A model generated the notes under the pieces. That model was not told the origin of the DNA, searched no databases, and worked only from the letters and a program-made list of their open reading frames with translations. Shown piece by piece: positions 3,089-20,596 of a DNA stretch of 64,000 nt. Location of the stretch: assembly GCF_021650975.2 (NCBI RefSeq), contig NZ_CP091285.1, positions 1,860,001 through 1,924,000 of the forward strand, given 5' to 3'. The first letter of the stretch is position 1. Every line of letters begins with the position of its first letter. The DNA comes from Flavobacterium jumunjinense. Its GTDB lineage: Bacteria; Bacteroidota; Bacteroidia; Flavobacteriales; Flavobacteriaceae. Both the position numbers and the translations under genes were made by a program.

Positions 3089-5500
3089 TTAATACTTAAT
3101 AACCATTTTTTTACTATCAATTTTTTGATTACCTACAAAAAGAGTGTAGTTATAAATTCCAGAAGCCAAACCTTTTGTGCTGATATTTAGTTCTTTTTCT
3201 CCAGTTTCATTTAAATCTACAGTTTCAATTGTCTTTCCTAACATGTCGGTAAAGATAATTTTAGCATTATCTGTTGAAGCAGGTAAGAAATATTTAATTA
3301 TTGAATTATTATTGAATGGATTTGGAATGTTTTGGTAAAGAATTGGTCCAGAATTTCTGTTTGCTCCAAGAACAGGTGGTCCTGCAAGTGTTCCATCACA
3401 AGCACAAGCTTCAATAATATCTAAACGAGCTAAGATATCGTTAATTTGTGTTTGTTGGTTTGTGTTTTCAGTTTGAAGTGCACTTAAAATTGGTGATAAA
3501 TCAACATTTACTGAAGAGCCATTTTCAATAGCTATAGTTAAAGTGTTTCCTGATAAAGTTGCAGATGTAAGGTTTTGCGAATCAGTGTTAACATAAGCCG
3601 ATAAATCTACAGTTGAAGGATCATTTGTTAAACTTAAAATATTACCAGTTAGAGTTAAATCCTGAGCATCTGTTCCATTTAAAGAAGATAAATCTATAGT
3701 ATTCGTTCCACCAGAAATGCTTAAAGTAGATCCGGATAAAGCTAACTCTTGAGAATCAGTATTGTCTAAATAACCGCTTAAGTCTACTGTAGTAGCATCA
3801 TTTGTTAAACTTAAATTATTACCTGTTAATTCTAAATCTTGTTCGTCTGTGTTGTCCAAATAGCTGGTTAAATCGACAGTATTTGTTCCTCCAGAAAGAC
3901 TTAAAATATTACTTCCATCTACTGCTAATTCTTGGGAATCTGTATTAATTGAGCTAACCCAAGCAGCACCATCCCACACATAAAGTGCTTTGTCATCTGT
4001 ATCATAAACCATTAACCCTTCGTCAGTAGTTGTTAAACTTCCTTCTAAAGTAGTTCTTAGTGCATTAGTTAATCGGTTAATTTGAAGTCCTTTGTTGGTA
4101 TCTGCTAATTCTAAAGAAGCATTAGGGTTTGGAGTGTCTGTACCAATACCTACACTTAAAGGATTAGTAACTCCACCAAGAACCATAGTGTTATCATTAA
4201 CTGCTGTAGCAGCATTACCAATGGCAACAGCGTTATTCCCTTGTACATTTGAAGAATGTCCAATTGCGATATTATTAGTTGGAAGTAACGTTCCAGGATC
4301 AGTAGAAGTAGCTCCATAACCTAAAACAATCGTTCCATTAGCTTGAGCAACTGAGTTTGAGCCTATCGCAATAGCTTGTGTATTGTCGATGTCAACTACA
4401 TTTCCTATTCCAACACTGTAGGATTGTGAATTGTTTACTTGGTAACCAATTCCTACAGAATAATCTGCATTAGCATTCATATTTGTTTGATATCCCATTC
4501 CAATGGCACCAGTACCTCTCAGGTCCATATCATTTCCAATACTAACAGAGTATTGAGCGTTATTATAAATACTATATCCCATCATTATGACATCATTATT
4601 ACCTACTGTATTTGCAGCTCCAATAAAAGTATTTCTACTTCTAACGGTGTTGTTAAAATCAGAAAAAGCTCCCATACCTACATTGTCTTCTCCTTCTCTG
4701 TTTGAAAATCCAGTAGCTCTTCCTACATAAGTATTTCGATTTGCATTAGTAGTACTGTTTGTTCTGTTGTTGTCCCAACCTGCTTCCGCTCCAATAAAAG
4801 TATTGTTGTCTGCGTATTCGGTTGCAACTCCTGATGCAGCACCAACAAAGGTATTGTAAATACCAGTGCCCACATCTATTCCAGAGGAATCTCCTAATGC
4901 AGTATTATGATGACCAGTATCTATATCACTCATAGATTCGCTTCCTACACCAACATTTCTATACCCTGTCCCATTTGATCCAGCGGAGCCATATCCGCCA
5001 GCTTCATTTCCAATAAATACATTTTTGTATCCTGTTACAATTTTACTTCCAGCATCTTCTCCTATAAAAGTGTTTTCATATCCTGTAGTGTTACTAGTTC
5101 CTGATTCTTCTCCTATAAAAGTGTTGTCATAACCAGTAGTATTGTTTTCACCTGATTCAGCTCCAAAAAAAGTATTATCGCCTCCAGTTGTATTAAAATA
5201 TCCAGATTGCCAACCTATAAAAGAGTTGTCGAAGCCAGTAGTGTTTGAATATCCAGCTTGATAGCCGATTGCTAGAAATTCGCTGGTTGTCACACTTCTT
5301 CCTGCCTGATATCCTATTAAAGTAGTTCCAGAGCCTGAAGTTAAAAAACTTCCTGTACTGTCGCCATACATAGTGTTAAAGTCACCAGAAGTAATGGATA
5401 TTCCAGAGCCTGTTCCTTGTACTTCATTTAATGTTTGAGCCTTTGAAAACGCTAAGGTTAACAGCCCAATAATAAACGAAAAGAGTAATTTTTTTTTCAT
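3089..5500 (-). CDS. T9SS-secreted surface protein with YadA-head-like repeats
   Basis: An 803-residue secreted protein. Residues 1-21 are a signal peptide ending in FSKAQ. About residues 60-300 hold degenerate repeats of roughly 15-20 residues built on NTFIGxxSGxxNTTGxxN, resembling the left-handed head repeats of trimeric autotransporter adhesins. They continue as AIGxNSxAxxNG-type repeats to about residue 445. A tail-fibre-like segment follows (GIGTDTPNPNASLELADTNK to DKALYVWDGAAWVSS), then beta repeats of the DSQELALSGSTLSISGGTN type. A short CAC linker precedes a type A T9SS sorting domain at about 727-803 (NPFNNNSIIKYFLPA to KKMVIKY). The T9SS signal shows outer-membrane export and surface attachment or release; adhesion is inferred from the repeats. 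A terminator follows at 3030-3067. Confidence 0.85.
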   Translation of the reverse strand: MKKKLLFSFIIGLLTLAFSKAQTLNEVQGTGSGISITSGDFNTMYGDSTGSFLTSGSGTTLIGYQAGRSVTTSEFLAIGYQAGYSNTTGFDNSFIGWQSGYFNTTGGDNTFFGAESGENNTTGYDNTFIGEESGTSNTTGYENTFIGEDAGSKIVTGYKNVFIGNEAGGYGSAGSNGTGYRNVGVGSESMSDIDTGHHNTALGDSSGIDVGTGIYNTFVGAASGVATEYADNNTFIGAEAGWDNNRTNSTTNANRNTYVGRATGFSNREGEDNVGMGAFSDFNNTVRSRNTFIGAANTVGNNDVIMMGYSIYNNAQYSVSIGNDMDLRGTGAIGMGYQTNMNANADYSVGIGYQVNNSQSYSVGIGNVVDIDNTQAIAIGSNSVAQANGTIVLGYGATSTDPGTLLPTNNIAIGHSSNVQGNNAVAIGNAATAVNDNTMVLGGVTNPLSVGIGTDTPNPNASLELADTNKGLQINRLTNALRTTLEGSLTTTDEGLMVYDTDDKALYVWDGAAWVSSINTDSQELAVDGSNILSLSGGTNTVDLTSYLDNTDEQDLELTGNNLSLTNDATTVDLSGYLDNTDSQELALSGSTLSISGGTNTIDLSSLNGTDAQDLTLTGNILSLTNDPSTVDLSAYVNTDSQNLTSATLSGNTLTIAIENGSSVNVDLSPILSALQTENTNQQTQINDILARLDIIEACACDGTLAGPPVLGANRNSGPILYQNIPNPFNNNSIIKYFLPASTDNAKIIFTDMLGKTIETVDLNETGEKELNISTKGLASGIYNYTLFVGNQKIDSKKMVIKY

Positions 5501-5644: not shown

Positions 5645-8600
5645 ATGAAAAAAAGTAAAAAGTTCATAGAGGTAATACTATTTGCTCTTGTGTTTTTAGT
5701 CTACCTGTTTTCTGCGTCTAAAACTATTACTTTTTGGGATAGTGCAGAGTTTGTAACCAGTAACTATCATTTGCAAGTAACGCACCCTCCTGGCGCATCG
5801 TTTTACACACTTCTATGTAATTTTATAATGCTCTTTTTTCCAGCAAGCTGGGTCGCTTTAATTAGTGCTATGTTATCAGCTTTCTTTGGTGCTTTAACAG
5901 TTGTTTTTTTGTATCGAATTACCCAATTAATTGCTCTTAGAATAGTTCAAAAAGATAGTTCAAAACAAGTTTTAATTCTTACTCATCTTTGTGGTTTATT
6001 AGCAGCTTCAACTTTGGCTTTTTCAAATACTTTTTGGACAGTTGCTACGGAAACAGAAGTGTATACTTTGTCTTCATTCCTTCTATTACTCACTTTCTAT
6101 TTAATGATTTTGTGGAATGATTGTAATAATGTAGTGCAATCGAGAAGGTTAATGTTTTTTCTGTTGTTCGTACTTGGAATTTCGATTGGAGTGCATTTAA
6201 TAAATCTTTCAGTTATAATACCATTATCTATTTTGTATGTAAATAAAAAGAAGAATTTAGGCTGGAAACAAATAGTTGTTTCTTTGTTTTTGAGTGTTTT
6301 TCTTTTTCTGTTTATTTATAATATAGGTATTCAAGGTTTTTTAAAAATTGCTTCTTTTGTAGATGTGAAATTGGTTAATAATTATAATTTACCAGTAAAT
6401 TCTGGATTGTTTATATTGATTGTTTTGTTTCTATTTATGGTTTTTTATGGATTGAATAGGGCAAAAAAGAAGAAAAACATAAGAATATATAACATAATTT
6501 TAGGGACACTTTTTTTTGCTATTGGCACGAGTACTTATATTATTCCAATTCTTAGGAAAGATGTAGTTACTCCATTTTCTAATTCAATTGAGACAAGTAA
6601 TCAATTGTTGAATTATTTGAAAGCAAAACAGTTTGGAGTAGATAATACACCTCTTGTTAAAGGGACAATTTTCAATGCTCCGTTAGACAAGGATTTGCCT
6701 TTCCTCAATGATGAAGAAATATTAACTTATAACCAAGAGAGTCAAAAATATGAGGTTGTTGATGATGGTAAGTATAGTAAAATAAACTATGCTAATGAAT
6801 ACGATATGTTTTTCCCAAGAATGTATAGTCAGAAACCATTAAGTGCAGTTGGTTATTCTAATTGGGTTGCTATTAAAGGTGAGAAAATTAGTTATCCTGT
6901 TCAAGGGAAAATGACAGATTTGTTAAAACCTACTTTTAGTGAAAATTTGCAGTTCTTTAAAAATTATCAAGTAGAATGGATGTACTTGAGGTATCTATAT
7001 TGGAATTTCATTGGGAAGCAAAATGAGAATAAAGGAACAGGAGAAATTTTTAATGGAAACTGGATTAGTGGATTCAACTTTATTGATAAGAGTAGAATTG
7101 GAGACGAAACAGTTATCCCGAGTCGCTATAAGAACGATAAAAGTAATGATGCTTATTATTTTTTACCGTTTATGTTGGGATTGATAGGATTATGGTCGTT
7201 AAGAAAAAATAAAGCCTACTTAATTACTACTGTAGTTTTCTTCCTAACTTTTGGAATAGGAATAACAATTTATCTTAATCCATTGCCAGAAAGTGTTTTA
7301 GTTAGAGAAAGAGATTATATCTTTCTTGGTTCCTTTCTCATCTTTTCAATGTGGGTAGGCTTTTCAATCTTAACATTAAATGAATGGTTAACAAAAATTA
7401 AATCCCAGCAAATCAGAGTTACAATAATAAGTCTTTTTGTGTTGTTGGCATCCCCTTTGCAATTATTGGCTAAAAACTGGAATAATCATCAAAGAAGTAA
7501 CGATACTTTTGCATACGAATTAGCTGAAAAATATTTAGACTCTTGTCCTAAAGGTGCAATATTAATTACAAACGGAGATAACTTTACTTTTCCGTTATGG
7601 TATCTACAAGAAGTTGAAAGCTATAGAGATGACATTCGTGTGATTAATTATGATCAATTAAATATTGAAAACTACATAGATAAGCTAAAATGTAAAAGTT
7701 TAAACTCAGAACCATTGAAGGTTAGTTTTCTAAGAGAAAATTATATTGAGGGTACTCCTAAATTATTTCCACTTAAGAAAGAAACTGAAAAACCAGTAGA
7801 TTTATCTCAATTATTTCAGTTTTTAAACAATGAAAAAACTAAGATTAATTGGAACGGTAAGCAACAACATTATATTCCTGGAGATTTATTTTCAATTAAT
7901 GTTGATACAATAAAAAAGGTCTTTTCTAATTTTAATATTAAAGAATTAAAAGCAAACTATAATTCGAAAATTCTATTCAAATATTCAAAGAATTTTTATC
8001 AGTTAAAAGATATTATGTTGTTCAATATAATTCAAGAAAATATTAATGAAAAACCAATTTGTTTTGCAATAAATGGAGCTACAGATCATTATGTAGGTTT
8101 TCAAAATAATTTAATACACAGAGGGTTTGTAGAGCAATTAATCCCTATTGTAAGAGATAGTAAGGTGTTAAATCCGAAAATTGTAGCTTTAAATCTGTGT
8201 GATGAAATTTTGATGAAAGGAGTCAGTTTTGAAGAATTAAAAACAAAAACAAATTTTATTAAATCAGAAAATATAGAGTATACACAAATTATATTAAGAA
8301 AGAACTACTATTTTCTTGCTCAGGCATTAATCGAGGAAGGAAAGAATAAGGAAGCAAAACAGGTTTTAGATAAGTGTATGACAATGTTTCCAAATTACAC
8401 AATACCATTCAAACAATATTCCTTTGCATTAGGGAAACTCTATTATAGAATTGGAGAGAAACAAAAAGGGAATGAGGTTTGTTTGTTGAGTATGAAGAAT
8501 ATTTGGGAAGAATTACAATGGATAACGTCATTTAATCCAGAAGTTAATCAAATTATAAATGTAAAGAAAGCTGTAAAAATAAAAGACATTTACTTGCAAA

Positions 8601-8713
8601 TGATTAATCAACTGAATCATTACAATCAGGAAGAAGCTAAAAAGAAAATGATTGAAGCAGATAGTTTTGTAAAGCGATTTTCAATTTGGGAAATAAAAAA
8701 TAGTCCATACTAA
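5645..8713 (+). CDS. DUF2723 (GT117, TMEM260-like) membrane protein
   Basis: A 1,022-residue protein of the DUF2723 family, related to protein O-mannosyltransferase-type GT-C enzymes. The N-terminal half is polytopic. The first extracytoplasmic loop carries the diagnostic FWDSAEFVTSNY segment (W31, D32, E35) and HPPG at 47-50, the acidic site expected to act on a lipid-linked sugar. Further membrane segments run to about residue 610. The C-terminal 400 residues are soluble, with a helical TPR-like segment around 885-945. In the family, eukaryotic TMEM260 is a protein O-mannosyltransferase; in Flavobacteriaceae a role in protein O-glycosylation is plausible but inferred. It stands alone between two divergent or terminated neighbours, with a terminator at 8742-8767. 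Confidence 0.85.
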   Translation: MKKSKKFIEVILFALVFLVYLFSASKTITFWDSAEFVTSNYHLQVTHPPGASFYTLLCNFIMLFFPASWVALISAMLSAFFGALTVVFLYRITQLIALRIVQKDSSKQVLILTHLCGLLAASTLAFSNTFWTVATETEVYTLSSFLLLLTFYLMILWNDCNNVVQSRRLMFFLLFVLGISIGVHLINLSVIIPLSILYVNKKKNLGWKQIVVSLFLSVFLFLFIYNIGIQGFLKIASFVDVKLVNNYNLPVNSGLFILIVLFLFMVFYGLNRAKKKKNIRIYNIILGTLFFAIGTSTYIIPILRKDVVTPFSNSIETSNQLLNYLKAKQFGVDNTPLVKGTIFNAPLDKDLPFLNDEEILTYNQESQKYEVVDDGKYSKINYANEYDMFFPRMYSQKPLSAVGYSNWVAIKGEKISYPVQGKMTDLLKPTFSENLQFFKNYQVEWMYLRYLYWNFIGKQNENKGTGEIFNGNWISGFNFIDKSRIGDETVIPSRYKNDKSNDAYYFLPFMLGLIGLWSLRKNKAYLITTVVFFLTFGIGITIYLNPLPESVLVRERDYIFLGSFLIFSMWVGFSILTLNEWLTKIKSQQIRVTIISLFVLLASPLQLLAKNWNNHQRSNDTFAYELAEKYLDSCPKGAILITNGDNFTFPLWYLQEVESYRDDIRVINYDQLNIENYIDKLKCKSLNSEPLKVSFLRENYIEGTPKLFPLKKETEKPVDLSQLFQFLNNEKTKINWNGKQQHYIPGDLFSINVDTIKKVFSNFNIKELKANYNSKILFKYSKNFYQLKDIMLFNIIQENINEKPICFAINGATDHYVGFQNNLIHRGFVEQLIPIVRDSKVLNPKIVALNLCDEILMKGVSFEELKTKTNFIKSENIEYTQIILRKNYYFLAQALIEEGKNKEAKQVLDKCMTMFPNYTIPFKQYSFALGKLYYRIGEKQKGNEVCLLSMKNIWEELQWITSFNPEVNQIINVKKAVKIKDIYLQMINQLNHYNQEEAKKKMIEADSFVKRFSIWEIKNSPY

Positions 8714-8741: not shown

Positions 8742-8767
8742 AAAAACAGGTAATTGTACCTGTTTTT
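8742..8767 (+). terminator. Terminator of the DUF2723 gene
   Basis: Stem AAAAACAGGTA (8742-8752), loop ATTG, stem TACCTGTTTTT (8757-8767), continuing into a T-run. It isolates the oxidase island downstream. Confidence 0.8.
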
Positions 8768-8784
8768 TTAGTTCTTTATTTGGG

Positions 8785-8792
8785 TAATTTTG
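8785..8792 (+). promoter_or_regulatory. -7 element of the amino-acid-oxidase island
   Basis: TAATTTTG, an exact TAnnTTTG match directly after the preceding terminator and 23 bases before the ATG at 8815. It would drive the LodA-like and LodB-like genes together. Confidence 0.5.
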
Positions 8793-8814
8793 AAAGAAAC
8801 AAAACAAATAAAAC

Positions 8815-10710
8815 ATGGGAACAGATAAAACAATTCAAAGTGTTGCAATTTATCCAGCTGTCGGAATTGCAAGAATAGGGAATTCATCAGAATATTATTT
8901 TGCATCCGATTTGCCAAATGCGATTGAAAAACCAGATGGTGGTTTTAAGGATAATGAAGGGAAAGTAAAAAAACAAGTAGCTCGATTCAGGATTTATGGT
9001 TTCAATGCTGAAGGTGAAGTTGTAAGAGAAATTACGGCTGCTGAAGCGAAAATTGGTTGGAGAGTGCATGTTGCAAATGTAAAGTCAGCTTGGTATGAAT
9101 TTAATAACGCATTAGATCTTGAAGGATATGCAATTCCATCAACTTTTAGAAATGGAAATGTAAAAGGAGACGATAGAGAACAACTAGTAATTAATCCTGG
9201 AATAAAAAAAATAGAGGGCAGAAGCGAGAAAGGAAAACCTGAATATGAATTAACTGGCGGGAAATTTTACGGAAAAAATGTCCCTCTGGGTAAGATAGAA
9301 ACAGATGAAGAAGGAAGATTGCTTTTCTTTGGAGGAGATGGAGATTCTGCTTCTTATGATAATAAACCAGCAACGACTTTTGCAAATAATGTGGGATGGC
9401 ATGATGATACTTCTGATGGGGTTATTAGAGCCTCGGTAGTTATTGATGGTAAAATTTTTGAAGCAGAACCAGCTATGGTTGCTGTAACGCCACCAAATTT
9501 TGGACCAGGACTTTTTGGAGTTGTTACAATGTATGATGTAGTTTTAAATTTATTTATAGAAGAATTTAATTACCCAGATCCTACAATAATTAATGGAGTA
9601 AATTTTTGGGAACACATTTATCCAGTTTTAGAACGAATGACGAACACACAGTGGGTTAATCAAGGGTTTTTCATGCTTTTTGGGAAAAATTCGCCTTCAG
9701 ATTTTACAAATCCAGAATTGTTGAATAAACTATCAGATCCTTCAGAAGAGGCAAAATCAGAAAGAGAAAGGATATTTAATTGGTTAAGAGACCCAAATAG
9801 TACTATTGCTGAACCGAAGAAAATTCCACCTTTTTATGGAGATGGTTTCGGAGATTACACAAATATTGCTTTAGACGATTTGCCAATTACCAAAACTCAA
9901 TATAAATGGTTTGAAAAATGGGCAAAAGGAGATTTTAATAACAATAAAATTGAAGAAATTACTTCATTCAACGAATTAACGGCAGACCAACAAATCAAAG
10001 CATTAAATAGTGCTCCATTTGAAGAATGTCTAGGTGGTCCATTTCATCCAGGAATAGAGCTAACATGGCCAATGCGTAATGCAAAAATGTGGAAAGAACC
10101 TTTTAGGTTGAATGTGTTACCAGAAAATGAAATGCCTAATTTAGATTATGGTAGCCTATTAAGTCCTGCGATTGCTTTAGCAGATGACGGACCTTTATCA
10201 GCAAGCGGACCTGGTTCTTTAACAAGATGGTTGGGTGTGCCTTGGCAAACAGATGAAGCAAGTTGTTTGTCGGGTTATGATACAACAACCTATTTGCCAT
10301 TGCCTTCATTTTGGGCTGCGAGAGTTCCGAATCAAATACTAAGTGAAGATAGTTATACCAGAATGAGTGATAAAAAAATGAATATTGGTCAACGATTGAA
10401 ACATTTTGATTATCGTCAAGATTGGTTAAGAGAGTTTGGAACACAATATCTTCCAAAAATTAATAAAATGATTAGCGAATGGCATGATTTAGGAATTATT
10501 GCAGAAACTGAACATGTGAATCAAGATACAGAATTCTTGCCAGATAGAGTTTGGAAAGAAACAAGAATGGCATATACTTCTATAGATCCAACAATGGAGC
10601 AAGTAAGATATGCAGAAAGAGTAGAACAAGAACGATTATTGAAATCAGCACATTCAGATTCAAATAGACGAACTAAGAAGCGTCCATTCTATGGTAGAAA
10701 TGAGCGATAA
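8815..10710 (+). CDS. LodA/GoxA-like CTQ-dependent amino-acid oxidase
   Basis: A 631-residue protein of the LodA family (marinocine-type L-lysine epsilon-oxidase and glycine oxidase GoxA). These use a cysteine tryptophylquinone cofactor made from the enzyme's own Cys and Trp and release H2O2 and ammonia. The family start is clear (SVAIYPAVGIARIGNSSEYY), as are the PFHPGIELTWPMRN segment and, near the C-terminus, PWQTDEASC followed by LPSFWAARVPN. I take C484 and W500 in these motifs as the likely cofactor pair; this needs alignment. There is no signal peptide, as is usual in this family. The 20-base overlap with the downstream LodB-like gene fits co-expression with the maturation flavoprotein. 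Substrate cannot be read from the sequence. Confidence 0.85.
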   Translation: MGTDKTIQSVAIYPAVGIARIGNSSEYYFASDLPNAIEKPDGGFKDNEGKVKKQVARFRIYGFNAEGEVVREITAAEAKIGWRVHVANVKSAWYEFNNALDLEGYAIPSTFRNGNVKGDDREQLVINPGIKKIEGRSEKGKPEYELTGGKFYGKNVPLGKIETDEEGRLLFFGGDGDSASYDNKPATTFANNVGWHDDTSDGVIRASVVIDGKIFEAEPAMVAVTPPNFGPGLFGVVTMYDVVLNLFIEEFNYPDPTIINGVNFWEHIYPVLERMTNTQWVNQGFFMLFGKNSPSDFTNPELLNKLSDPSEEAKSERERIFNWLRDPNSTIAEPKKIPPFYGDGFGDYTNIALDDLPITKTQYKWFEKWAKGDFNNNKIEEITSFNELTADQQIKALNSAPFEECLGGPFHPGIELTWPMRNAKMWKEPFRLNVLPENEMPNLDYGSLLSPAIALADDGPLSASGPGSLTRWLGVPWQTDEASCLSGYDTTTYLPLPSFWAARVPNQILSEDSYTRMSDKKMNIGQRLKHFDYRQDWLREFGTQYLPKINKMISEWHDLGIIAETEHVNQDTEFLPDRVWKETRMAYTSIDPTMEQVRYAERVEQERLLKSAHSDSNRRTKKRPFYGRNER

Positions 10711-11800
10711 TATATTCTTCAATATAATTATAATTGGTGGTGGTCCTGCAGGAATAGCTGCAGGACTCACTATTACATCACGATGTTTATCTTGTGTAAT
10801 TGTTGAAGCGAATCAAATTAGCGATCAAAAATTAGGTGAATGTCTTCCTCCGAATTCTCTTCCTTTGTTTAAAAAAATGGGATTAGAATCATTACTTCAA
10901 GATGAGCAACATCATCCTTATTATGGAAATAAATCAGTTTGGGGAAATGATAAAATTGAAGAGAAGCTATTTCTTTTTGATAAGTTTAGTCAAGGGATTT
11001 TATTAAATAGAAATTATTTTGAAAAACAACTAAGAGAGGTTTCAAAATTAAATCATCTACAATGGCTTGAAGGATATACTTTTTATTCTGTTGAAAAAGA
11101 AAATGATGTAACAAAAGTAGTATTGAAATCTAAAACCAATACTAAAACACTTTATTGTAATTATATAATAGATGCAACAGGAAGAAAGGCTTCTGTTTGT
11201 AGAAAATTGGGTGTTAATAAGAATACAATAGACGAATTGACTTCATTAAACTTTAAATACAAGATTAAGAAACCTGTTCCTTTTTTTGTTTTTACAGAAA
11301 GCTTAGAAAATGGATGGGTTTATGTTTCACCTTCAGAAAAAGATTTTCTAACTGTAATGATTTTTACAGATTTAGACCTAATTCCTTCTAAAAAAGAGGA
11401 AAAGGAGTTTATAGAGAGACATATCAATAATTCAGTTCTAATTCAAGAAATACTAAAAAAAAACGACATCGAACCTGAGATTTTAGATTTAAAAACACGT
11501 GTAGCAAATACAACTTGTTTGAATGTGCCTTTTGGAGAAAATTGGATTGCTATTGGAGATGCTGCCTATTCGTTCGACCCATTGTCATCTTATGGAATTA
11601 CTTCTGCTTTAGCGGCTGGTTATTATGGAGGTCATGCGGTTTCTGATGCAATTTCTGGAAAAACAGAAGCCTTAGAAACGTACCATTTTATAATGGATAA
11701 TGCATTTCTAAATTATAAAATTCAATTGAAAGAACAGTATGCTACAGAGAAGAGATGGAAAGAGAAAACCTTTTGGAAAAGAAGATTAAACTATAATTAA
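10691..11800 (+). CDS. LodB-like FAD protein for quinone-cofactor maturation
   Basis: A 369-residue FAD-dependent oxidoreductase. The N-terminus holds the dinucleotide-binding GGGPAG (16-21) and a halogenase/geranylgeranyl-reductase-type flavin fold; the second FAD motif, GDAAYSFDPLSSYGI, is near residue 290. It overlaps the LodA-like gene by 20 bases in another frame. LodB proteins are needed to form the CTQ cofactor in LodA, and this exact gene pairing is the main evidence for that role here. An alternative start is Met4 (10700), which would reduce the overlap. It is slightly odd in lacking any following immunity or transport gene. Other flavoprotein monooxygenases share the fold, so partner context carries the call. 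Confidence 0.85.
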   Translation: MVEMSDNIFFNIIIIGGGPAGIAAGLTITSRCLSCVIVEANQISDQKLGECLPPNSLPLFKKMGLESLLQDEQHHPYYGNKSVWGNDKIEEKLFLFDKFSQGILLNRNYFEKQLREVSKLNHLQWLEGYTFYSVEKENDVTKVVLKSKTNTKTLYCNYIIDATGRKASVCRKLGVNKNTIDELTSLNFKYKIKKPVPFFVFTESLENGWVYVSPSEKDFLTVMIFTDLDLIPSKKEEKEFIERHINNSVLIQEILKKNDIEPEILDLKTRVANTTCLNVPFGENWIAIGDAAYSFDPLSSYGITSALAAGYYGGHAVSDAISGKTEALETYHFIMDNAFLNYKIQLKEQYATEKRWKEKTFWKRRLNYN

Positions 11801-11903
11801 AGCGATGAATATTAACTTTTTTTACAGAAAAGTAGTAAGGTTTATTGATAATATCGTTTTAATTTAGTAGGAAACTCATATAACAGAACAACAAATAAAC
11901 AAC

Positions 11904-12379
11904 ATGCGAAAAAATGAAAGTCATTACAAAGTTATTGTAGTTGGAGAGGGAGCTATGGGATTAATTTCCGCATATCAATTAAATAATAGAGAAGTTAAAA
12001 CGTTAGTGTTAGAGCAATTCACATTTAAAAATCAATTAGGAAGTTTAGCTGGTGTTTCTCGTCAATTTAGAATTCCTTATCTAGATGCTGATATACTTTT
12101 CAGTGGATTGAAAAACATTTGAAAGGACTAGACTCAAAACCATATTACACGTCAACTTGTTTGGTAGCGTTGAGCGATATTTCAAATAAAGAATTAATAA
12201 TAGATTTCGCTCCTAATTATGTGCCAAACTATAAAAAATTGTGATTTATGCTACAGGTTGGGCAGCAAAATTCACTCCTTTTTTAGGTAAAATTTTATCA
12301 GATTTAGCTTTAGACGGAGAAACACATTTTTGATATTACCCCTTTTAAATTAGGAGGAGATTACTTTAAAGCAATATAA
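11904..12379 (+). pseudogene. Remnant of a sarcosine/N-methyltryptophan oxidase-type (SoxA/SolA) flavoenzyme
   Basis: The intact-looking 72-codon frame at 11904-12122 is the N-terminus of an MSOX-type FAD oxidase (YKVIVVGEGAMGLISAYQLN, then GVSRQFRIPY). It then loses frame. In another frame, 12110-12243 continues with QWIEKHLKGLDSKPYYTSTC and DFAPNYVPNYKKL before a stop. Downstream, 12243-12379 encodes IYATGWAAKFTPFLGKILSD and LALDGETHF, and after a further shift DITPFKLGGDYFKAI, which is the family's C-terminal end. A full gene is near 370-390 codons, so well over half is deleted. It is therefore a decayed third flavin oxidase inside the island, not a functional small protein. Confidence 0.85.
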
Positions 12380-12405
12380 ACAAAATAGTTAAAAAATAGT
12401 TTAGT

Positions 12406-14175
12406 ATGAAGAATCATAAAAATATTCCATTAAATAACGGAATGTCTCGCGACATGAAAATTGAAGTTGCAATTGTAGGAGCAGGAACATCAGGATTATA
12501 TACTGCCTTTCGCTTAACTCAAGAAAAAAAACATGAAGCTAAAGATTTGCAAATTTTTGATATGAACTCAAGAATTGGTGGAAGATTAGAGTCTGTGAAA
12601 ATACCTGGTATGGATTTTTGGGGAGAGCTTGGAGGAATGAGATATCTTACTTCACAAGAGATTGTGACTACCTTAATTGAAGGATATCCATTATCGGAGT
12701 CCGATTTAGAAAAAAGAACAGCAGTTTTAGATTACCCAATGACTCCAATTCCATTTCCAATGGGTGATCCAGCAGATTTATTGATGTATCTTAGAAAAGA
12801 AAGATTCAAGCAAGATGCTTGGGAAGTGGCACAGCAAAAGGGACAAAAATTCCAAACGCGCTTCTATTTAAATCAAGATGATTGTGGATTTAGTGGAGAT
12901 CAGTTGTTTAATAAAATAATCTATGATGTCTTAATGTCAGACCCTTGGTTTGTTCAAAAGTATGGAGATAAGGTTTTTAAATATACTACTTATCGATATG
13001 AATTTCAATTGACAAGTAGAGATTGGGATGATATTAAGCCGAATTTAGAATACCGTTTTGTTGGTTCTCCTTATAATAATAGAAAGGTTAATGATATCGG
13101 TTTTTGGAACTTAATTAAAGATCAAGTATCTCAAGAAGGATACGTTTTTCTTGCCAATGCAGGAGGATATTATTCAAATACAATCAATTGGAATTCTGCA
13201 GAAGCTTTTCCTTATATGGTTGGAGATTTTTCAAGTAGTCCAACATATAAAACAATTGAAGAAGGTTATGATAGTATAGCTTATGCTTTAGCAAATCAAT
13301 ATTTAATGAATGAAGGGGCTTGTATTTGGTCTGAAAACAAATTGCTTACATTTAATAGAGAACATGTAAATAGTACTACTCATAAATATGAATTAGTGTT
13401 TTTAAATCTTCAATCCAATGAAGAATGGAAAGTGTATGCAAACACATTAATATTAGGTATGCCTAGACAATCTCTGGAATTGTTAGATCAGAATAATTTC
13501 TTTTTTGATACTAATATAAGAGAAGAGTTAAATGAGAATATACGTTCCGTAATAAAAGAACCAGCATTTAAGATACTTATGGGGTTTGAATATCCTTGGT
13601 GGAAAAAAGCACTAGATATAGATTCTGGTCATTCAATTACCGATTTACCAATGCGTCAATGTTATTATTTTGGTACAGATGAAAATAATGATCATTCAAT
13701 GTTGTTAGGTAGTTATGGTGATATGGAGACAGAAACATTTTGGAAAGCATTATCAGATGATAAAGTTTTGTTTGAAGTAAGACCTACGAAATCGGCATCG
13801 CTTTTAGAATTAGAAGAATTGAATGATGTTCAAGCTACTCAAATGATGGTGAATGAATTGATGAATCAATTGAGAGAGCTTCATGGACCCGATGTTGTTA
13901 TTCCAGATCCATATGTTACATGGTTTAAAGATTGGACAGATGCGCCTTTTGGAGCAGGTTATCATGCATGGAAGGCAGGTTTTTCTGTAAAACATGTAAT
14001 GCCATATATGAGAAAGCCTTTAGAAGAGGAAGCGATTCATATTATTGGAGAAGCTTATTCGGATCAGCAAGGTTGGGTGGAAGGAGCTTTTTGTGAAGCA
14101 GAAAAGATGCTTCAAGAATACTTCGAGATGAATCGCCCAGAATGGTTAAGTCCAGATTATTATTTGGGTTGGTAA
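12406..14175 (+). CDS. Flavin-dependent L-amino-acid oxidase (amine oxidase family)
   Basis: A 589-residue FAD enzyme of the flavin monoamine oxidase/L-amino-acid oxidase superfamily. It has VAIVGAGTSG (residues 21-30), the GGR motif at 58-60 (SRIGGRLESV), the substrate-domain LGGMRY segment, and the C-terminal FAD motif IIGEAYSDQQGWVEGAF. There is no signal peptide. Such enzymes convert L-amino acids to keto acids, NH3 and H2O2, and secreted or released versions are antibacterial in marine bacteria. It is the third oxidase-type gene in a row on this strand (after the LodA/LodB pair and a dead one), which suggests a shared role, but its substrate is unknown. ATG at codon 17 is an alternative start. 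A strong terminator follows at 14191-14220. Confidence 0.8.
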   Translation: MKNHKNIPLNNGMSRDMKIEVAIVGAGTSGLYTAFRLTQEKKHEAKDLQIFDMNSRIGGRLESVKIPGMDFWGELGGMRYLTSQEIVTTLIEGYPLSESDLEKRTAVLDYPMTPIPFPMGDPADLLMYLRKERFKQDAWEVAQQKGQKFQTRFYLNQDDCGFSGDQLFNKIIYDVLMSDPWFVQKYGDKVFKYTTYRYEFQLTSRDWDDIKPNLEYRFVGSPYNNRKVNDIGFWNLIKDQVSQEGYVFLANAGGYYSNTINWNSAEAFPYMVGDFSSSPTYKTIEEGYDSIAYALANQYLMNEGACIWSENKLLTFNREHVNSTTHKYELVFLNLQSNEEWKVYANTLILGMPRQSLELLDQNNFFFDTNIREELNENIRSVIKEPAFKILMGFEYPWWKKALDIDSGHSITDLPMRQCYYFGTDENNDHSMLLGSYGDMETETFWKALSDDKVLFEVRPTKSASLLELEELNDVQATQMMVNELMNQLRELHGPDVVIPDPYVTWFKDWTDAPFGAGYHAWKAGFSVKHVMPYMRKPLEEEAIHIIGEAYSDQQGWVEGAFCEAEKMLQEYFEMNRPEWLSPDYYLGW

Positions 14176-14190
14176 AAAAACTCACAAAAG

Positions 14191-14220
14191 AAAGAGGCTG
14201 TTATTTCTAACAGCCTCTTT
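14191..14220. terminator. Terminator after the L-amino-acid oxidase gene
   Basis: A perfect 13-bp stem, AAAGAGGCTGTTA (14191-14203) and TAACAGCCTCTTT (14208-14220), with loop TTTC, T-run on the right and A-run on the left. Its symmetry suits convergent genes. Before the IS insertion it would also have lain about 25 bases downstream of prc. Confidence 0.85.
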
Positions 14221-14229
14221 TTATATTCT

Positions 14230-14253
14230 TGTCCCGTCCTGAAATAAGTTGAC
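14230..14253 (+). repeat. Left inverted repeat of the IS3-family element
   Basis: TGTCCCGTCCTGAAATAAGT plus TGAC. It matches the reverse complement of 15517-15540 except at four positions: three near the outer end and one inside. Confidence 0.85.
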
Positions 14254-14269
14254 ATAAAATCGACTTATT

Positions 14270-14662
14270 ATGAATAAATCAGAAAACAGGCCAGCAAAGC
14301 GTAGTCAACGCGATTATAATCTGGGCTTTAAATTAGCTGTTATTTCTCAAGTAGAAAAAGGCGAACTTACCTATAAGCAAGCTCAAAAGAAGTATGGAAT
14401 TCAAGGTAGAAGTACAGTTTTGGTTTGGTTAAGAAAATTTGGTAATTTAGATTGGAGTAACCTCAAGCTTTTGTTTATGGTCAAATCTAAAGAAACTCCA
14501 GCCCAAAGCATTAAAAGATTAGAGAAAGAATTAGCTGATGAGAAGCTTAAAAACACAGTGCTAAACACCATGATTGATATCTCAGATAGTCAATACGGTA
14601 CTCAAATTAGAAAAAAGTTTTCACCCAAACCATCCGACGCATCCAACAAGAAGAAGGCATAA
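14270..14662 (+). CDS. IS3-family transposase OrfA
   Basis: A 130-residue protein with an N-terminal helix-turn-helix of the transposase IS3/IS911 type (DYNLGFKLAVISQVEKGELT, then KKYGIQGRSTVLVWLRKFG) and a C-terminal leucine-zipper-like helix (SIKRLEKELADEKLKNTVLN). It binds the IS ends. Near its 3' end the heptamer A AAA AAG (14611-14617) is in the phase needed for a -1 ribosomal slip into the OrfB frame. That yields the OrfAB fusion transposase, after which OrfB-frame sequence continues without a stop. OrfA alone ends with TAA at 14660-14662. Confidence 0.9.
   Translation: MNKSENRPAKRSQRDYNLGFKLAVISQVEKGELTYKQAQKKYGIQGRSTVLVWLRKFGNLDWSNLKLLFMVKSKETPAQSIKRLEKELADEKLKNTVLNTMIDISDSQYGTQIRKKFSPKPSDASNKKKA
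14611..14617 (+). promoter_or_regulatory. A6G programmed -1 frameshift site of the transposase
   Basis: AAAAAAG read as AGA AAA AAG in OrfA; a -1 slip enters the OrfB frame, which stays open through KKVFTQTIRRIQQEEGIS into the OrfB start at 14665. This is the canonical IS3-family arrangement. Confidence 0.8.
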
Positions 14663-14664
14663 GT

Positions 14665-15501
14665 ATGTCCAGAACTTGTAGATTGTTTGGGGTAAGCCGA
14701 CAAGCTATTTATCAGCAGGAAGCACGTTGTTTAGAACGAGAGAAAGAATTATTAATAGTAAAGCAACTCGTTGAAAAACAAAGAAGAATTATGCCTCGAT
14801 TAGGCACAAGAAAACTTTATTTTTTACTAGAACAATCTTTTGTTGAAAATAGAATTAAAATCGGGAGAGATGCATTTTTTGCTTATTTGAAAAGAGAAAA
14901 AATGCTAGTTAAACCAATGAAAAATTACACAAAAACCACCTTTTCTAAACACTGGTTACGTAAGTACCCCAATTTATTTAAAGATATCGATATCAACAGA
15001 ATAGAACAGGTTTTTGTTAGTGACATAACTTATATAAAATCTAATAAAAGAACTCATTATCTATCATTAGTTACAGATGTTTTTAGCAGAAAAATAGTTG
15101 GTTATCATTTGAGTGATGACATGAGTGCAGAAAGTGTGGTTAAGGCCTTAAGAATGGCAGTAAAAAACAGAAAAACAAACCTTCAATTAATACATCACTC
15201 AGACAGAGGTTTACAATATTGTTCTAAAATTTATCAAAATGAATTAACCAAAAATAATATTATTGCTTCTATGACCGATGGCTATGATTGTTATCAAAAT
15301 GCTCTAGCGGAAAGAATAAATGGTATTCTAAAACAAGAATTCCTCATATACAAATGTAAATCAGGTGATGAACTTAACCTTTTAGTTAGAGAGTCTGTGG
15401 AATGCTATAATAGTAAAAGACCTCATTTGAGTTTAAATATGAAAACACCTAACTTTGTATATGAAAAAACCAGTGAAGTTAACTTCACTGGTTTTAATTA
15501 A
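14665..15501 (+). CDS. IS3-family transposase OrfB (DDE catalytic domain)
   Basis: A 278-residue integrase-core protein. The HTH_21-type N-terminus (CRLFGVSRQAIYQQEARCLE) is followed by an rve domain with the DDE triad: D in FVSDITYIKS, D in HHSDRGLQYCS and E in NALAERINGILKQEF. It can be made alone from ATG at 14665, which lies 2 bases after the OrfA stop, or as the OrfAB fusion by frameshift at 14611-14617. Its last codons (SEVNFTGFN) are encoded by a 30-base perfect palindrome that also works as a terminator. No stop or frameshift damage is visible. Confidence 0.92.
   Translation: MSRTCRLFGVSRQAIYQQEARCLEREKELLIVKQLVEKQRRIMPRLGTRKLYFLLEQSFVENRIKIGRDAFFAYLKREKMLVKPMKNYTKTTFSKHWLRKYPNLFKDIDINRIEQVFVSDITYIKSNKRTHYLSLVTDVFSRKIVGYHLSDDMSAESVVKALRMAVKNRKTNLQLIHHSDRGLQYCSKIYQNELTKNNIIASMTDGYDCYQNALAERINGILKQEFLIYKCKSGDELNLLVRESVECYNSKRPHLSLNMKTPNFVYEKTSEVNFTGFN
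15466..15495. terminator. Palindromic terminator inside the transposase 3' coding end
   Basis: AAAACCAGTGAAGTT (15466-15480) is followed directly by its exact reverse complement (15481-15495), with TTTT-rich sequence on both sides. It ends IS transcription. On the other strand it now also lies first in the path of the prc transcript, with six T's after the hairpin on that strand. Confidence 0.75.
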
Positions 15502-15516
15502 TTTATTGTAAAACTC

Positions 15517-15540
15517 GTCAACTTATTTTAGGACGACTCA
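15517..15540 (-). repeat. Right inverted repeat of the IS3-family element
   Basis: The reverse complement begins TGAGTCGTCCTAAAATAAGT and pairs with the left end. It is followed at once by the TCT target duplicate and, 14 bases further on, by the prc stop codon. Confidence 0.85.
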
Positions 15541-15554
15541 TCTTTAATAATTGA

Positions 15555-17705
15555 TTAATTCAATTTTTCAAAAATTCCTTTTTTATTTTTAGTGTAAACA
15601 ACACTTTTGAAATCGATTTTTTCAACATCGTTTAACACATTCAACGCTTCATCTAGATAAATATCTTTTTGAAGATCTTCATGCCAACGATCTCTTTTTT
15701 CTTTTAGAAGTGAATCTTTTTTGAAAAGTTCGAGTTCAGATGGAAGAGAATTAAAAACTAATTTATTGTTATATTCAGAAAGTGATTTGAATTTTCTTAG
15801 TTTGTTGTCAATAATTTCCATTTTAATTTCAAATTTTTCTAAACTTAACTCAAAACTATTGTCATCTTTTCTTTCATATATCCATTTCGCATTCTCTTCA
15901 ATTAACTTGAAGTTATCATTTCTTTTGATTCTTTCGTTACTATTTGAAATAACAGTTTCAAAACCTGAAAAAATTGGTTTGTATGGAGCAGCATCAATTT
16001 TGTCCCATGGTAAAGCATTTTCTTCATCTCTTTCTCCCATATCTAAATAGGCAAAACGATCTGGAAATACAATGTCACTTAAAACACCTTCTCTTTGAGT
16101 TGAACCACCATTAATTCTATAGAATTTTTGAGTAGTCGTTTTTAAAGCTCCTAAATCACCGTATGAATTGCTTCTTACAAATTGATTTAAGTCTACAAGG
16201 TTTTGAACAGTTCCTTTTCCATATGTATGTTTACTTCCAACAACAAGACCTCTTTTGTAATCTTGAATTGCTGCAGCAAAAATTTCAGAAGCAGAAGCAG
16301 AGAAGTTATCAACCATTACAACAAGTGGACCTGTCCATTGAACACCAGGATCTTTATCTGAAAGAATGTCTTTTTTACTTCCAGAAGATTTAACTTGAAC
16401 TACTGGGCCTTGCTCAATAAATAAACCTGTCATGTTAACAACAGTTTCTAATGAACCTCCACCGTTACCTCTTAGGTCAATAATAATACCTTCAATTTTC
16501 TCTTTCTTTAGTTTTTCAATCTCAACAGCAACATCTTTGTATGCGTCTCTTTTGTCTTTGTTGTCAAAACTGATGTAAAATTTCGGTAAGTAAATAACTC
16601 CGAATTTTTTTCCTTCTTTATCAACAACTGCAGATTTTGCAAATGTTTCTTCTGTTTCAACTTCATCACGAATAATAGAAATAACAGTGATAGAACCATC
16701 AACTTTTTTAACAGTTAAACGAACCTCAGTACCTTTTGAGCCTTTAATTTTTTTAACAACATCATCTAGTCTCATTCCTGCAATATCAACAGGATCTCCT
16801 TTTCCTTGTGCTACTTTCAGTATCACATCTCCAGACTCTAATTCTTTACCTCTCCAAGCAGGCCCACCAGAAATTAATTCAGAAATTTCAACAGCATCAT
16901 TTTTCTTTTGTAAACGAGCACCAATTCCTTCGAATTTTCCACTCATGCTTATATCAAACTTATCTTTTTCTTCTGGAGAAAAGTAAAAAGTATGTGGGTC
17001 AAATTGTTCAACAATAGAATTGATGAAAATGGAATACCAGTCGTTACTATCAAGCTCTTTCTCGATAAAGTCAAAATAATCATTTAGTGATTTAAGAGAA
17101 CTTTCGCGAGCTTCTTTTTCAATTTCAGCAAAACTTTTTTCTTTATAAGAACTATCGTTTTTCTTTTTGTCTTTTTCTAATTTTTGTTTGTCGATAATAG
17201 TAGAAAGTGCAGACAATTTTAGCTGTCTTCTCCATCTATTTTTTAAATCCTTGTCGTTTTTTGCGTAAGGTTGATTTTCATAATCTGTACTTATTGATTC
17301 ATCTATAGAAAAATCAAAAGGTTTAGCTAGTACAGCTTTATAAATCGATTTAGATTCGTTCACTCTTTTTATTAATCGAGTGTTAGTTAAGTAAAAGAAA
17401 GATAAGTCTTTATTTTTGATCATATCATCAATTACATGCTTGTATTGATCAAATTCTTTAATATCTGAATCTAAAAAAAATCTTTTTGTAGGATCTATCC
17501 CGTTAAGATATTTGTTATAAACCCTTTTAGAGAAGTTATCATTAATCTCAACAGGACTATAATGCCCCTTCTCTAAAACATAAGTCAGTAACTCTAAAAG
17601 TAATTTATCTTTCTCTGGGTCTTCGGTTTTGGTAGTAGGAACAAAGCTCCATAGAACTGCAGATAAGGCAGTTACTAGCAAAATAACCTTATAATTTCTT
17701 CTCAT
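15555..17705 (-). CDS. prc: Carboxy-terminal (tail-specific) processing protease, S41 family
   Basis: A periplasmic Ser/Lys protease that trims or degrades envelope proteins from their C-termini. I place the start at ATG 17705 (MRRNYKVILLVTALSAVLWS), which gives a signal peptide and 716 residues. The open frame runs upstream to 17840 but that extension is charged and not secretory; MTQIVDF at 17726 is another option. Order: N-terminal TSP helical domain, PDZ domain (GKFEGIGARLQKKNDAVEIS and GDVILKVAQ), then the S41 core with catalytic Ser in VDNFSASASEIFA and Lys in HTYGKGTVQNL. The C-terminal DUF3340-like domain follows. An IS3-family element ends only 14 bases after its stop, cutting it off from the likely ancestral terminator. 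Divergent from surE. Confidence 0.92.
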   Translation of the reverse strand: MRRNYKVILLVTALSAVLWSFVPTTKTEDPEKDKLLLELLTYVLEKGHYSPVEINDNFSKRVYNKYLNGIDPTKRFFLDSDIKEFDQYKHVIDDMIKNKDLSFFYLTNTRLIKRVNESKSIYKAVLAKPFDFSIDESISTDYENQPYAKNDKDLKNRWRRQLKLSALSTIIDKQKLEKDKKKNDSSYKEKSFAEIEKEARESSLKSLNDYFDFIEKELDSNDWYSIFINSIVEQFDPHTFYFSPEEKDKFDISMSGKFEGIGARLQKKNDAVEISELISGGPAWRGKELESGDVILKVAQGKGDPVDIAGMRLDDVVKKIKGSKGTEVRLTVKKVDGSITVISIIRDEVETEETFAKSAVVDKEGKKFGVIYLPKFYISFDNKDKRDAYKDVAVEIEKLKKEKIEGIIIDLRGNGGGSLETVVNMTGLFIEQGPVVQVKSSGSKKDILSDKDPGVQWTGPLVVMVDNFSASASEIFAAAIQDYKRGLVVGSKHTYGKGTVQNLVDLNQFVRSNSYGDLGALKTTTQKFYRINGGSTQREGVLSDIVFPDRFAYLDMGERDEENALPWDKIDAAPYKPIFSGFETVISNSNERIKRNDNFKLIEENAKWIYERKDDNSFELSLEKFEIKMEIIDNKLRKFKSLSEYNNKLVFNSLPSELELFKKDSLLKEKRDRWHEDLQKDIYLDEALNVLNDVEKIDFKSVVYTKNKKGIFEKLN

Positions 17706-17872
17706 AAAATCAACAATTTGGGTCATTAATAATTTTTTAACTAAGGTACATAAAATATCATGCCAATATGTTGCAATGTACAATATTTTTTTCAAAAAAA
17801 CCAATTTTTTTATTTGTACTCTCTTGATTTTCGGTTCCATTTAAATTATTTAAATTAGCAAAAAAATAATTC

Positions 17873-18643: not shown

Positions 18644-18912
18644 AAAAAACAGACATATTAATAGGGTTTCTAATTGGTCTATTTGGCGCTTTTTTAGGAA
18701 CATATCTTTCCTTATCATTTTTTACAGAGCAAGGTTTTGTAGAAGGATTTAGATTGATGAAACAAGGTGGAAATATTGGTAAAGTGATAACATTAGGAGC
18801 AATTCCTAATTTGATTATTTTCTTCTTTCTTTTGAAAAAAAACAAAGATTTGATGGCACGTGGGATTGTCTTGTCTATGTTCATTTTAACAATAATAACA
18901 TTAATTTTATAA
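18640..18912 (+). CDS. Small membrane protein, DUF4199-like size, unknown function
   Basis: A 90-residue protein with three predicted membrane segments (DILIGFLIGLFGAFLGTYLS; VITLGAIPNLIIFFFLL; GIVLSMFILTIITLIL). I do not recognise a named family. The start ATG at 18640 overlaps the surE stop by ATGA; an earlier in-frame TTG (18628) exists but the coupled ATG is more likely. The next gene starts 1 base after its stop, so it sits inside an operon of envelope-related genes (surE, this, a histidine phosphatase, lpxB). Function unknown. Confidence 0.75.
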   Translation: MKKTDILIGFLIGLFGAFLGTYLSLSFFTEQGFVEGFRLMKQGGNIGKVITLGAIPNLIIFFFLLKKNKDLMARGIVLSMFILTIITLIL

Positions 18913-18913
18913 G

Positions 18914-19435: not shown

Positions 19436-19446
19436 ATTTTATCCAT

Positions 19447-20562: not shown

Positions 20563-20566
20563 TCTT

Positions 20567-20574: not shown

Positions 20575-20596
20575 CACAAAATTAATCATTTTCATT

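Follow-up and report, generated by a model that had tools for sequence, protein, structure and literature searches.

A LodA-type quinoprotein cassette beside the surviving half of a NikD–lysine oxidase pair in Flavobacterium jumunjinense

Three described systems resemble parts of the locus considered here. The CTQ quinoprotein oxidases of the LodA/GoxA family are represented by GoxA (PlGoxA, PDB 6byw) and LodA (3weu), and the sections of PMC4417212 drawn on here describe the LodA/AlpP-type proteins (group IA) as antimicrobial and the group II proteins, of the Kordia algicida type, as being without a Tat motif. The second system is the AncLLysO/CaLLysO family of L-lysine alpha-oxidases (PDB 7eih, 7eii and 7eij), treated in the consulted parts of PMC8405998 as enzymes for use in assays, with no pathway assigned to them; CaLLysO has a kcat/Km for lysine more than 15-fold that for arginine, and the published products of AncLLysO are 5-aminopentanoate and 5-aminopentanamide, not piperideine-2-carboxylate (P2C), with 5-aminopentanoate far exceeding the other measured product in vitro when H2O2 is not removed. 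The main text of that paper makes no mention of piperideine, picolin, sarcosine, operon or gene cluster, and the parts consulted do not describe the linkage and fusions to NikD set out below. The third is the NikC/NikD route of nikkomycin biosynthesis, in which an L-lysine 2-aminotransferase is followed by NikD, the enzyme that turns P2C into picolinate (PMC4021061, as far as its consulted text goes).

Here, we analyse positions 8815-14175 of a 64,000-nucleotide stretch of F. jumunjinense DNA (the window), where a LodA-like gene, a LodB-like gene, an oxidase remnant and an L-amino-acid oxidase gene all lie on the + strand, forming the single strand-coherent block originally predicted. Two unrelated enzyme cassettes adjoin in this block, one made up of LodA and its maturase, the other of what survives of a NikD-LLysO pair, and we consider it fairly probable that the best explanation is one of independent cassettes, lodA-lodB on the one hand and a nikD-llysO lysine-to-picolinate module that has lost NikD on the other.

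The LodA-LodB cassette

The first gene (8815..10710, +) encodes a protein of 631 aa which, judged by its two Pfam domains, its Cys, Trp and Asp positions and the adjacent maturase gene, is a member of the LodA/GoxA family of CTQ quinoproteins. LodA_N scores 240.3 bits (cut-off 26.3) and LodA_C 118.7 bits (cut-off 25), and PDB GoxA is matched at E=2.7e-52. The Cys and Trp expected to form CTQ (C484 and W500) and the Asp that precedes them (D480) fall in the part of the alignment that holds the cofactor of PlGoxA, and all three are invariant in 21 aligned sequences, that of the window included. While these features are common to GoxA, LodA and the window protein, the latter scores below both equivalog cut-offs, reaching 459.4 bits with the GoxA glycine oxidase model (NF038173, cut-off 750) and 175 bits with the LodA lysine epsilon-oxidase model (NF038172, cut-off 600). 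The scores suggest that it lies on the GoxA rather than the LodA side of the family, and identity as an antimicrobial lysine epsilon-oxidase was ruled out by model score. The protein probably belongs with the group II proteins, a K. algicida locus being 61% identical. A search of viral contigs for LodA gave no match.

The second gene (10691..11800, +), whose start overlaps the end of the lodA-like gene by 20 nt, encodes a LodB/GoxB-type flavoprotein maturase of 369 aa, recognized by the NCBIfam LodB and GoxB models at 218 and 217 bits, both below the cut-off of 400. A LodB match lies 3' of LodA in 24 of the 25 fetched loci, the other (L025) ending early at a contig edge. The original prediction of a LodA-like oxidase with a LodB partner is borne out by both reading frames and their family scores, and the pair would comprise a CTQ quinoprotein oxidase and the flavoprotein that builds its cofactor, the former predicted to deaminate some amine or amino acid with release of NH3 and H2O2.

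Some LodA proteins have an extra N-terminal domain, termed catalase-like in Table 3 of PMC4417212 (as consulted in part). Elsewhere in the genus there are LodA proteins with such a domain, and in four of the five nearest LodA relatives in the genus a homologous gene of ~340 aa stands separately, directly upstream of lodA; the window strain and G410, its nearest LodA relative, differ in having neither the domain nor the separate gene next to lodA. For one of the separate ~340-aa proteins neither Pfam nor NCBIfam gave a match, and PF00199 was absent from the domain in two fused proteins, so the name ‘catalase-like’ is here that paper's own. A PF00199 profile search of the whole F. jumunjinense genome likewise gave no match, in agreement with the earlier remark that no catalase is adjacent; a KatG-like open frame of 731 aa with two PF00141 matches lies 1.5 Mb from the locus.

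The NikD-LLysO pair and its remains in the window

The L-amino-acid oxidase of the original prediction is encoded by an intact open reading frame (12406..14175, +, 589 aa), followed directly on its 3' side by a terminator-like inverted repeat and T run seen on inspection of the sequence (14193..14222, +), and can be specified further as a predicted FAD-dependent L-lysine alpha-oxidase (LLysO). Its best solved relative is AncLLysO (7eih), with 1064 bits over 586 residues, and it keeps the positions of AncLLysO R76, E383, K387, Y516 and Q552 together with the plug loop 251-GGYY-254, in AncLLysO numbering converted by hand from the window/7eih alignment; the roles of the AncLLysO substrate residues are given in the consulted text of PMC8405998. 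Full-length similarity and the retained R76, E383 and plug loop place it in the LLysO family as a close relative with its predicted substrate-binding positions kept. Its dN/dS is 0.06-0.08 in two of five pairs and, since dS is saturated in the other three, says little on recent constraint.

Between lodB and the LLysO gene lies the remnant of another oxidase gene (11904..12376, +). Codons 1-60 are matched at 11904-12089 and codons 301-393 at 12092-12370, with ~240 codons deleted between them, several stops and a frame change within the C-terminal portion, and a search of the strain's own genome at E<=1e-5 found only these pieces and no intact NikD-type copy. The gene had been read as a dead MSOX-type oxidase, and while it is indeed broken, its intact relatives assign it to the NikD type, as the first gene of a NikD-LLysO operon. 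In L096, the intact relative encoded 5' of LLysO reaches 286 bits against structures of NikD, compared with 102 for MSOX and 91 for MTOX, and a profile of 11 gives 315 vs 122. Positions R51, R54, E102, Y260, C323, W357 and K360 are kept in 24/24 separate and 45-46/46 fused proteins, among which we take the Glu, Tyr, Trp and Lys to be active-site residues and the Cys to link the flavin; for the Tyr this is partly seen in the alignment with NikD structures, 3hzl differing there. By proximity to NikD over MSOX and MTOX, and by these positions, the intact relatives are classed as NikD-type. D278 is present in 24/24 separate and 35/46 fused proteins and Glu at E385 is absent from 4/46 fused ones, so not all need share a substrate. 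The NikD set excludes an MSOX-type protein (L008) and the LLysO set a distant oxidase (L009).

The conserved unit is NikD-LLysO, not LodA with an L-amino-acid oxidase. An intact NikD-type gene lies directly 5' of a close LLysO gene in 24 of 27 other genomes at a gap of -11 to +23 nt, 11 of them from the genus sample (-11 to +23 nt) and 13 from the order sample (11-16 nt); the remaining three have a 956-aa NikD-LLysO fusion, a NikD remnant and no NikD, so that NikD is tied to LLysO, fused or not, in 25/27. Close LLysO in the genus means 72% identity or more, 27 of 40 matches being weaker and dropped before counting. The genus sample comprises 398 genomes, the strain's own included; 13 of these have an intact NikD-type gene, adjoining an intact LLysO in 11 and LLysO fragments in two (G185 and G224). 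With three LLysO loci lacking an intact NikD (the window, G642 and G159) and two NikD loci lacking an intact LLysO, either gene may be of benefit by itself, or the pair may be prone to decay. The original prediction had overlooked that its ‘dead MSOX’ gene and amino-acid oxidase form one unit.

Fusions of at least 890 aa make up 45 among the 120 proteins listed, from Bacteroidota (examples being Aquimarina aggregata and Echinicola jeungdonensis) to a Thermoanaerobaculia MAG, and the tree of fused and separate proteins needs several fusion or fission changes. The pair is also present, as overlapping genes, on a plasmid of Staphylococcus pasteuri; on a plasmid of Scytonema, a relative of LLysO is encoded close to an NRPS gene, with no NikD match within the 11.7 kb fetched. 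Among the titles and abstract openings listed from the open-licence PMC literature, none reported a NikD-LLysO operon or fusion.

To the right of LLysO lies an IS3-family insertion sequence (14230..15540, +; ORFs 14270-14662 and 14665-15501, the second matching NCBIfam transpos_IS3 at 239 bits). As a copy flanks LLysO on this side only, a composite transposon carrying LLysO was ruled out. The element and the broken nikD raise the possibility that the whole stretch beyond LodB is functionless, acquired DNA in decay, with LLysO the next gene to go. The IS3 occurs in eight copies at 100% identity among those listed for the genome, the partner gene has been lost in four other genomes, and the window LLysO branch has a slight excess of unique changes (Tajima chi2 0.62-4.9 over six outgroups). 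As that excess passes 3.84 with one outgroup of the six, and as LLysO retains an intact frame, its checked positions and its own terminator-like repeat, we regard general decay as rather unlikely, though it stands best among the alternatives to independent cassettes.

A predicted route from lysine to picolinate

In the proposed route, LLysO would oxidise the alpha-amino group of L-lysine to give 2-oxo-6-aminohexanoate, which would cyclise to P2C, and the NikD-type enzyme would then carry out a four-electron oxidation of P2C to picolinate, for a predicted net reaction of L-Lys + 3 O2 -> picolinate + NH3 + 3 H2O2. The NikD-type second enzyme and the predicted P2C and picolinate would be shared with the nikkomycin route, which differs in that its first step is an aminotransferase, where here it would be the FAD oxidase LLysO, and in that NikD-LLysO makes up a compact two-gene unit of its own, frequently fused; inspection of the fetched loci by eye revealed neither nucleoside-antibiotic genes nor picolinate-using genes beside the pair.

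Because AncLLysO favours 5-aminopentanoate over its other measured product in vitro when H2O2 is left in, quick capture of P2C by an adjacent or fused NikD would protect such a pathway, as would removal of H2O2 by the product of the FMP-type peroxidase gene that neighbours LLysO in some relatives. Six of the 12 genus loci other than that of the window have this gene beside LLysO, and a seventh has a partial ORF at 69%; the L102 protein scores 620 bits with the NCBIfam model and the others are 77-79% identical. In the window's own genome the best scores are 43 and 28 bits (cut-off 300). With its NikD destroyed, LLysO here should yield only P2C, 5-aminopentanoate, NH3 and H2O2.

The NikD-type partner could instead be a general oxidase of imines or N-methyl amino acids, such as sarcosine or pipecolate, serving simple breakdown of lysine for nitrogen and carbon rather than picolinate formation. 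The top NCBIfam names, ‘amino oxidase’ and N-methyl-L-tryptophan oxidase, both at a sub-cut-off 178 bits, and the lack of a NikD model among the listed matches would fit this, as would the need for a pipecolate oxidase if P2C were reduced to pipecolate. Against it, the NikD match beats MSOX by 183 bits and MTOX by 195, in the alignment with MSOX the invariant Glu position is gapped and the invariant Trp position is a His, and the pipecolate oxidase model reaches just 33.5 bits; we find a general oxidase unlikely. By analogy with DmgAA7, for which a two-electron product is proposed in the consulted text of PMC11446937, NikD-type homologues might also stop at such a product, or act on another imine.

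Picolinic acid is a metal chelator and a building block. On balance, we lean towards the broader proposal that LLysO and the NikD-type enzyme, as a pair or one polypeptide, form a picolinate synthase of several bacterial phyla and perhaps some protists, turning lysine into picolinate with three H2O2, spread by islands and small plasmids and repeatedly joined and split, the window holding a relic without the second enzyme. Computation establishes the family assignments, the residue conservation, the linkage in operons and fusions, the break in nikD and the occurrence of LodA-LodB without LLysO in G410, while the substrates, picolinate as product and any ecological role are inferred. If correct, the proposal would give the LLysO family a physiological role, define an O2-driven conversion of lysine to picolinic acid by two enzymes, and predict a named small molecule from genes of Bacteroidota and staphylococcal plasmids whose products are annotated as ‘FAD-dependent oxidoreductase’ and the like; the repeated fusion makes it cheap to test.

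Juxtaposition of LodA and LLysO

The original prediction took LodA and the amino-acid oxidase to be grouped for a shared killing role, with H2O2 from both acting on competitors. Release of H2O2 and NH3 by both intact enzymes is plausible from their families and the active-site positions they keep, the group IA LodA/AlpP proteins offer an antimicrobial precedent, and the two genes co-occur above expectation, a LodA-family match (E<=1e-10; 25/398 genus genomes) being found in 5/13 genomes with close LLysO vs 20/385 others (Fisher p=6e-4, relatedness uncorrected), so that some tie between the cassettes is possible. Some LodA relatives also have a flavin amine oxidase of another type (PF01593) nearby, its gene being the immediate 5' neighbour of lodA in Lacihabitans (L009) and standing three genes upstream of lodA in each of three related Aquimarina loci. 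Conservation of the grouping, which the original prediction had itself named as a check, is nevertheless not supported, the genes being adjacent in one of the five genus genomes that have both, that of the window strain, sharing a contig at a distance of 11-12 kb in G101, and lying about 3 Mb apart in G404 and on separate contigs in G075 and G307. With LLysO tied to NikD elsewhere, LodA scoring on the GoxA side, no signal peptide visible by eye and LodA-LodB kept without LLysO in G410, a peroxide-based partnership is quite improbable, and the neighbouring peroxide-forming enzymes are better read as belonging to separate cassettes, one of which survives only in part.

In G410, whose LodA is 86% identical, LodA-LodB occupies the identical chromosomal site without LLysO, and the juxtaposition therefore looks secondary; G410 by itself fits either insertion in the window strain or loss in G410. 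The stretch missing from it by blastn (11786..15554) holds the NikD remnant, LLysO and the IS3, and blastn of window positions 1-24000 against locus L090 gives homology at 8743-11785 and 15555-21686. Directly after LodB, G410 has a tail-specific-protease gene, and the window's protease gene carries TSP_NTD and Peptidase_S41 domains.

The predicted lysine oxidase and its decayed NikD-type partner

Four elements follow one another on the forward strand of this genome (4.68 Mb, 2 contigs), as the original prediction had described: a LodA-family open reading frame (ORF; 8815-10710, with Pfam and NCBIfam support), a LodB-type ORF starting inside it (10691-11800), a wrecked gene recognised by sequence matches (11904-12376) and an intact 589-aa oxidase (ORF call, 12406-14175), 3′ of which sequence and models indicate a terminator-like repeat and then an IS3 element. 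Among solved structures the 589-aa oxidase matches AncLLysO best, with 1064 bits across 586 residues; this is a reconstructed L-lysine alpha-oxidase (LLysO) whose natural relative, CaLLysO, is reported to prefer lysine (PMC8405998). The positions of R76, E383, K387, Y516 and Q552 and the plug loop GGYY (AncLLysO numbering, converted by hand) are kept in the window protein, as in all 27 separate LLysO proteins when it is counted in.

The wrecked gene comes from a family of about 400 codons and matches only codons 1-60 and 301-393, some 240 codons being missing, with stops and frame changes downstream of the deletion; these several lesions make sequencing error unlikely, and the own-genome search found no second copy. 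Its identity is given by its counterparts elsewhere. Among 398 genomes of the genus, own included, 40 matched LLysO at E<=1e-10, and the 13 with at least 72% identity were counted; in 11 of the 12 others LLysO is immediately preceded by an intact gene 395-406 codons long, at a spacing of -11 to +23 nt. One copy of this gene (L096) scores 286 bits against structures of the imine oxidase NikD vs 102 bits against MSOX, the comparison oxidase, while a profile of all 11 gives 315 vs 122 bits. The exception, G159, shares flanking gene clusters with the NikD-bearing G272, so that its NikD-type gene was probably lost. In a sample of 395 genomes from the order (E<=1e-100), 16 matched, and of the 15 besides our own, 13 have a NikD-type gene 11-16 nt upstream of LLysO, G464 encodes both in one 956-aa fusion and G642 retains only a C-terminal NikD remnant. 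Over 27 other LLysO genomes there are thus 24 adjacent NikD genes, one fused, one remnant and one without. The converse search found an intact NikD-type gene in 13 of the 398 genus genomes, 11 of them beside intact LLysO and two beside LLysO fragments. These two loci, L161 (G185) and L162 (G224), display the reverse decay, and in L162 an FMP-type peroxidase gene lies next.

Fused proteins and a plasmid-borne pair

With the fusion as protein query, 7997 candidates were scored and 427 fell at E<=0.001; of the best 120 of these, 45 are at least 890 aa long, and all of these span 85% or more of the query. Their named sources include Aquimarina, Echinicola, Saprospiraceae, Cyclobacteriaceae, Cytophagaceae, Kordia and Thermoanaerobaculia records, together with three EukProt entries that are possibly contaminants. 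Aligned with the G464 protein (46 in all), 45-46 of 46 keep the seven NikD positions R51, R54, E102, Y260, C323, W357 and K360, as do 24 of 24 separate proteins. Of the 46 fused proteins, 35 have the Asp at D278, and 42 have the Glu at E385 of the LLysO part. A midpoint-rooted tree built by a quick method from 87 LLysO domains, with some branches long, requires the label 'fused' to change 7 times, and well-supported branches force at least 5 of these changes; 'alone' was assigned to any protein of LLysO size regardless of gene neighbourhood. In this tree the separate Flavobacterium-like pairs make up a single group, and fused proteins make up its sister group.

Outside the Bacteroidota, a tblastn search of plasmids with the fusion gave 39 records. 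Five of them, all from Staphylococcus, contain a single region that spans 80% or more of the query and is annotated as two FAD-dependent oxidoreductases. In the one examined, from S. pasteuri, two genes lie in the same order with a 4-nt overlap and keep 8 of 8 NikD and 8 of 9 LLysO positions. This plasmid (L159) is small and mobilizable, and its gene table, perhaps incomplete, lists an SDR gene and the pair besides mobilisation and replication genes.

A predicted route from lysine to picolinate

The families, residues and linkage of the NikD-LLysO pair are shown by the sequence analysis. The chemistry they suggest is that LLysO would convert lysine to 2-oxo-6-aminohexanoate, cyclising to piperideine-2-carboxylate, which the NikD-type enzyme would oxidise to picolinate. 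The latter step is known from nikkomycin biosynthesis, where an aminotransferase performs the first (PMC4021061), whereas LLysO would do so here; the predicted module is a variant of this known lysine-to-picolinate route, half lost in the window. Without catalase, AncLLysO yields over 15-fold more 5-aminopentanoate than 5-aminopentanamide, which its authors ascribe to H2O2 (PMC8405998), and this would explain why a NikD that captures the intermediate, whether adjacent or fused, and an FMP-type peroxidase are of benefit. Such a peroxidase gene (620 bits for the L102 protein, NCBIfam cut-off 300; others 77-79% identical to it) lies beside LLysO in 6 of the 12 other genus loci, and a seventh has a partial ORF at 69%. 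In G101 (L099), one of the six, it is on the opposite side, before NikD; G159, another of them, is the locus without NikD. One peroxidase query found no match in any of the 15 order loci.

The adjoining quinoprotein cassette

The 631-aa quinoprotein contains both LodA domains (Pfam) and scores 459 bits with the GoxA model vs 175 with LodA, below the equivalog cut-off in both. Its CTQ region, TDEASC...PSFW, aligns with PlGoxA, and D480, C484 and W500 are invariant across 21 sequences, this one included. It probably belongs with the Kordia algicida-type proteins of group II, described as unclustered and without a Tat motif (PMC4417212); a K. algicida locus is 61% identical, although K. algicida also has another LodA, from a different group. 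Of 25 loci retrieved, 24 have LodB 3′ of LodA, and the remaining one (L025) is truncated by a contig edge. Against G410, the nearest relative, LodA is 86% identical (dN/dS 0.074) and LodB 67% (dN/dS 0.26).

Directly upstream of lodA, four of the five nearest genus relatives (G395, G306, G321, G404) carry a gene of about 340 aa that is absent there from the window strain and G410. One such protein shares 40-46% identity with the N-terminal region of two LodA fusions found elsewhere in the genus; domains of this kind have been termed catalase-like (PMC4417212). PF00199 matched neither the one separate protein searched with nor the two fusions, and that separate protein had no Pfam or NCBIfam match. 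Judged by homology, the two forms are the same partner, separate or fused. The separate form, homologous to the fused domain, directly precedes lodA in L016, L017 and L091-L094.

Why the two cassettes adjoin is addressed by G410, where blastn homology spans 8743-11785 and resumes from 15555, the missing 11786-15554 leaving lodA-lodB at the same site without NikD-LLysO. Either the cassette was inserted in the window lineage or G410 lost it, insertion being favoured because LLysO distribution is scattered. The IS3 element is probably recent, given 8 copies at 100% identity among the own-genome matches listed. LodA occurs in 5 of 13 LLysO genomes of the genus vs 20 of 385 others (p=6e-4, uncorrected for relatedness), an excess by which the two may be loosely associated. 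The original prediction of two peroxide formers was sound in its chemistry, but their common role in killing competitors is unsupported. In Aquimarina (L003, L005, L006) and Lacihabitans (L009), another amine oxidase (PF01593) lies upstream of lodA, next to it or near, and the same loci carry a gene for an indolepyruvate-decarboxylase-like ThDP enzyme (256-265 bits, below cut-off), possibly forming an amino acid-to-aldehyde module linked to the quinoprotein.

A whole-genome search of the host gave no PF00199 match; a KatG-like open frame of 731 aa, matched twice by PF00141, lies at C1:344248-346107. The same genome has a second LodA-LodB locus (C1:3822000-3838000, L108), where lodA and lodB are separated by a 147-aa gene and preceded by one encoding a tyrosinase domain (PF00264); this locus resembles the group ID operon described in PMC4417212. 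Upstream of the cassettes, the window encodes an 803-aa repeat-rich protein (3089-5500, reverse strand), whose C-terminal region resembles, by eye, a type IX sorting domain, and a 1022-aa TMEM260-like membrane protein (5645-8713, forward strand; Pfam 135 bits).
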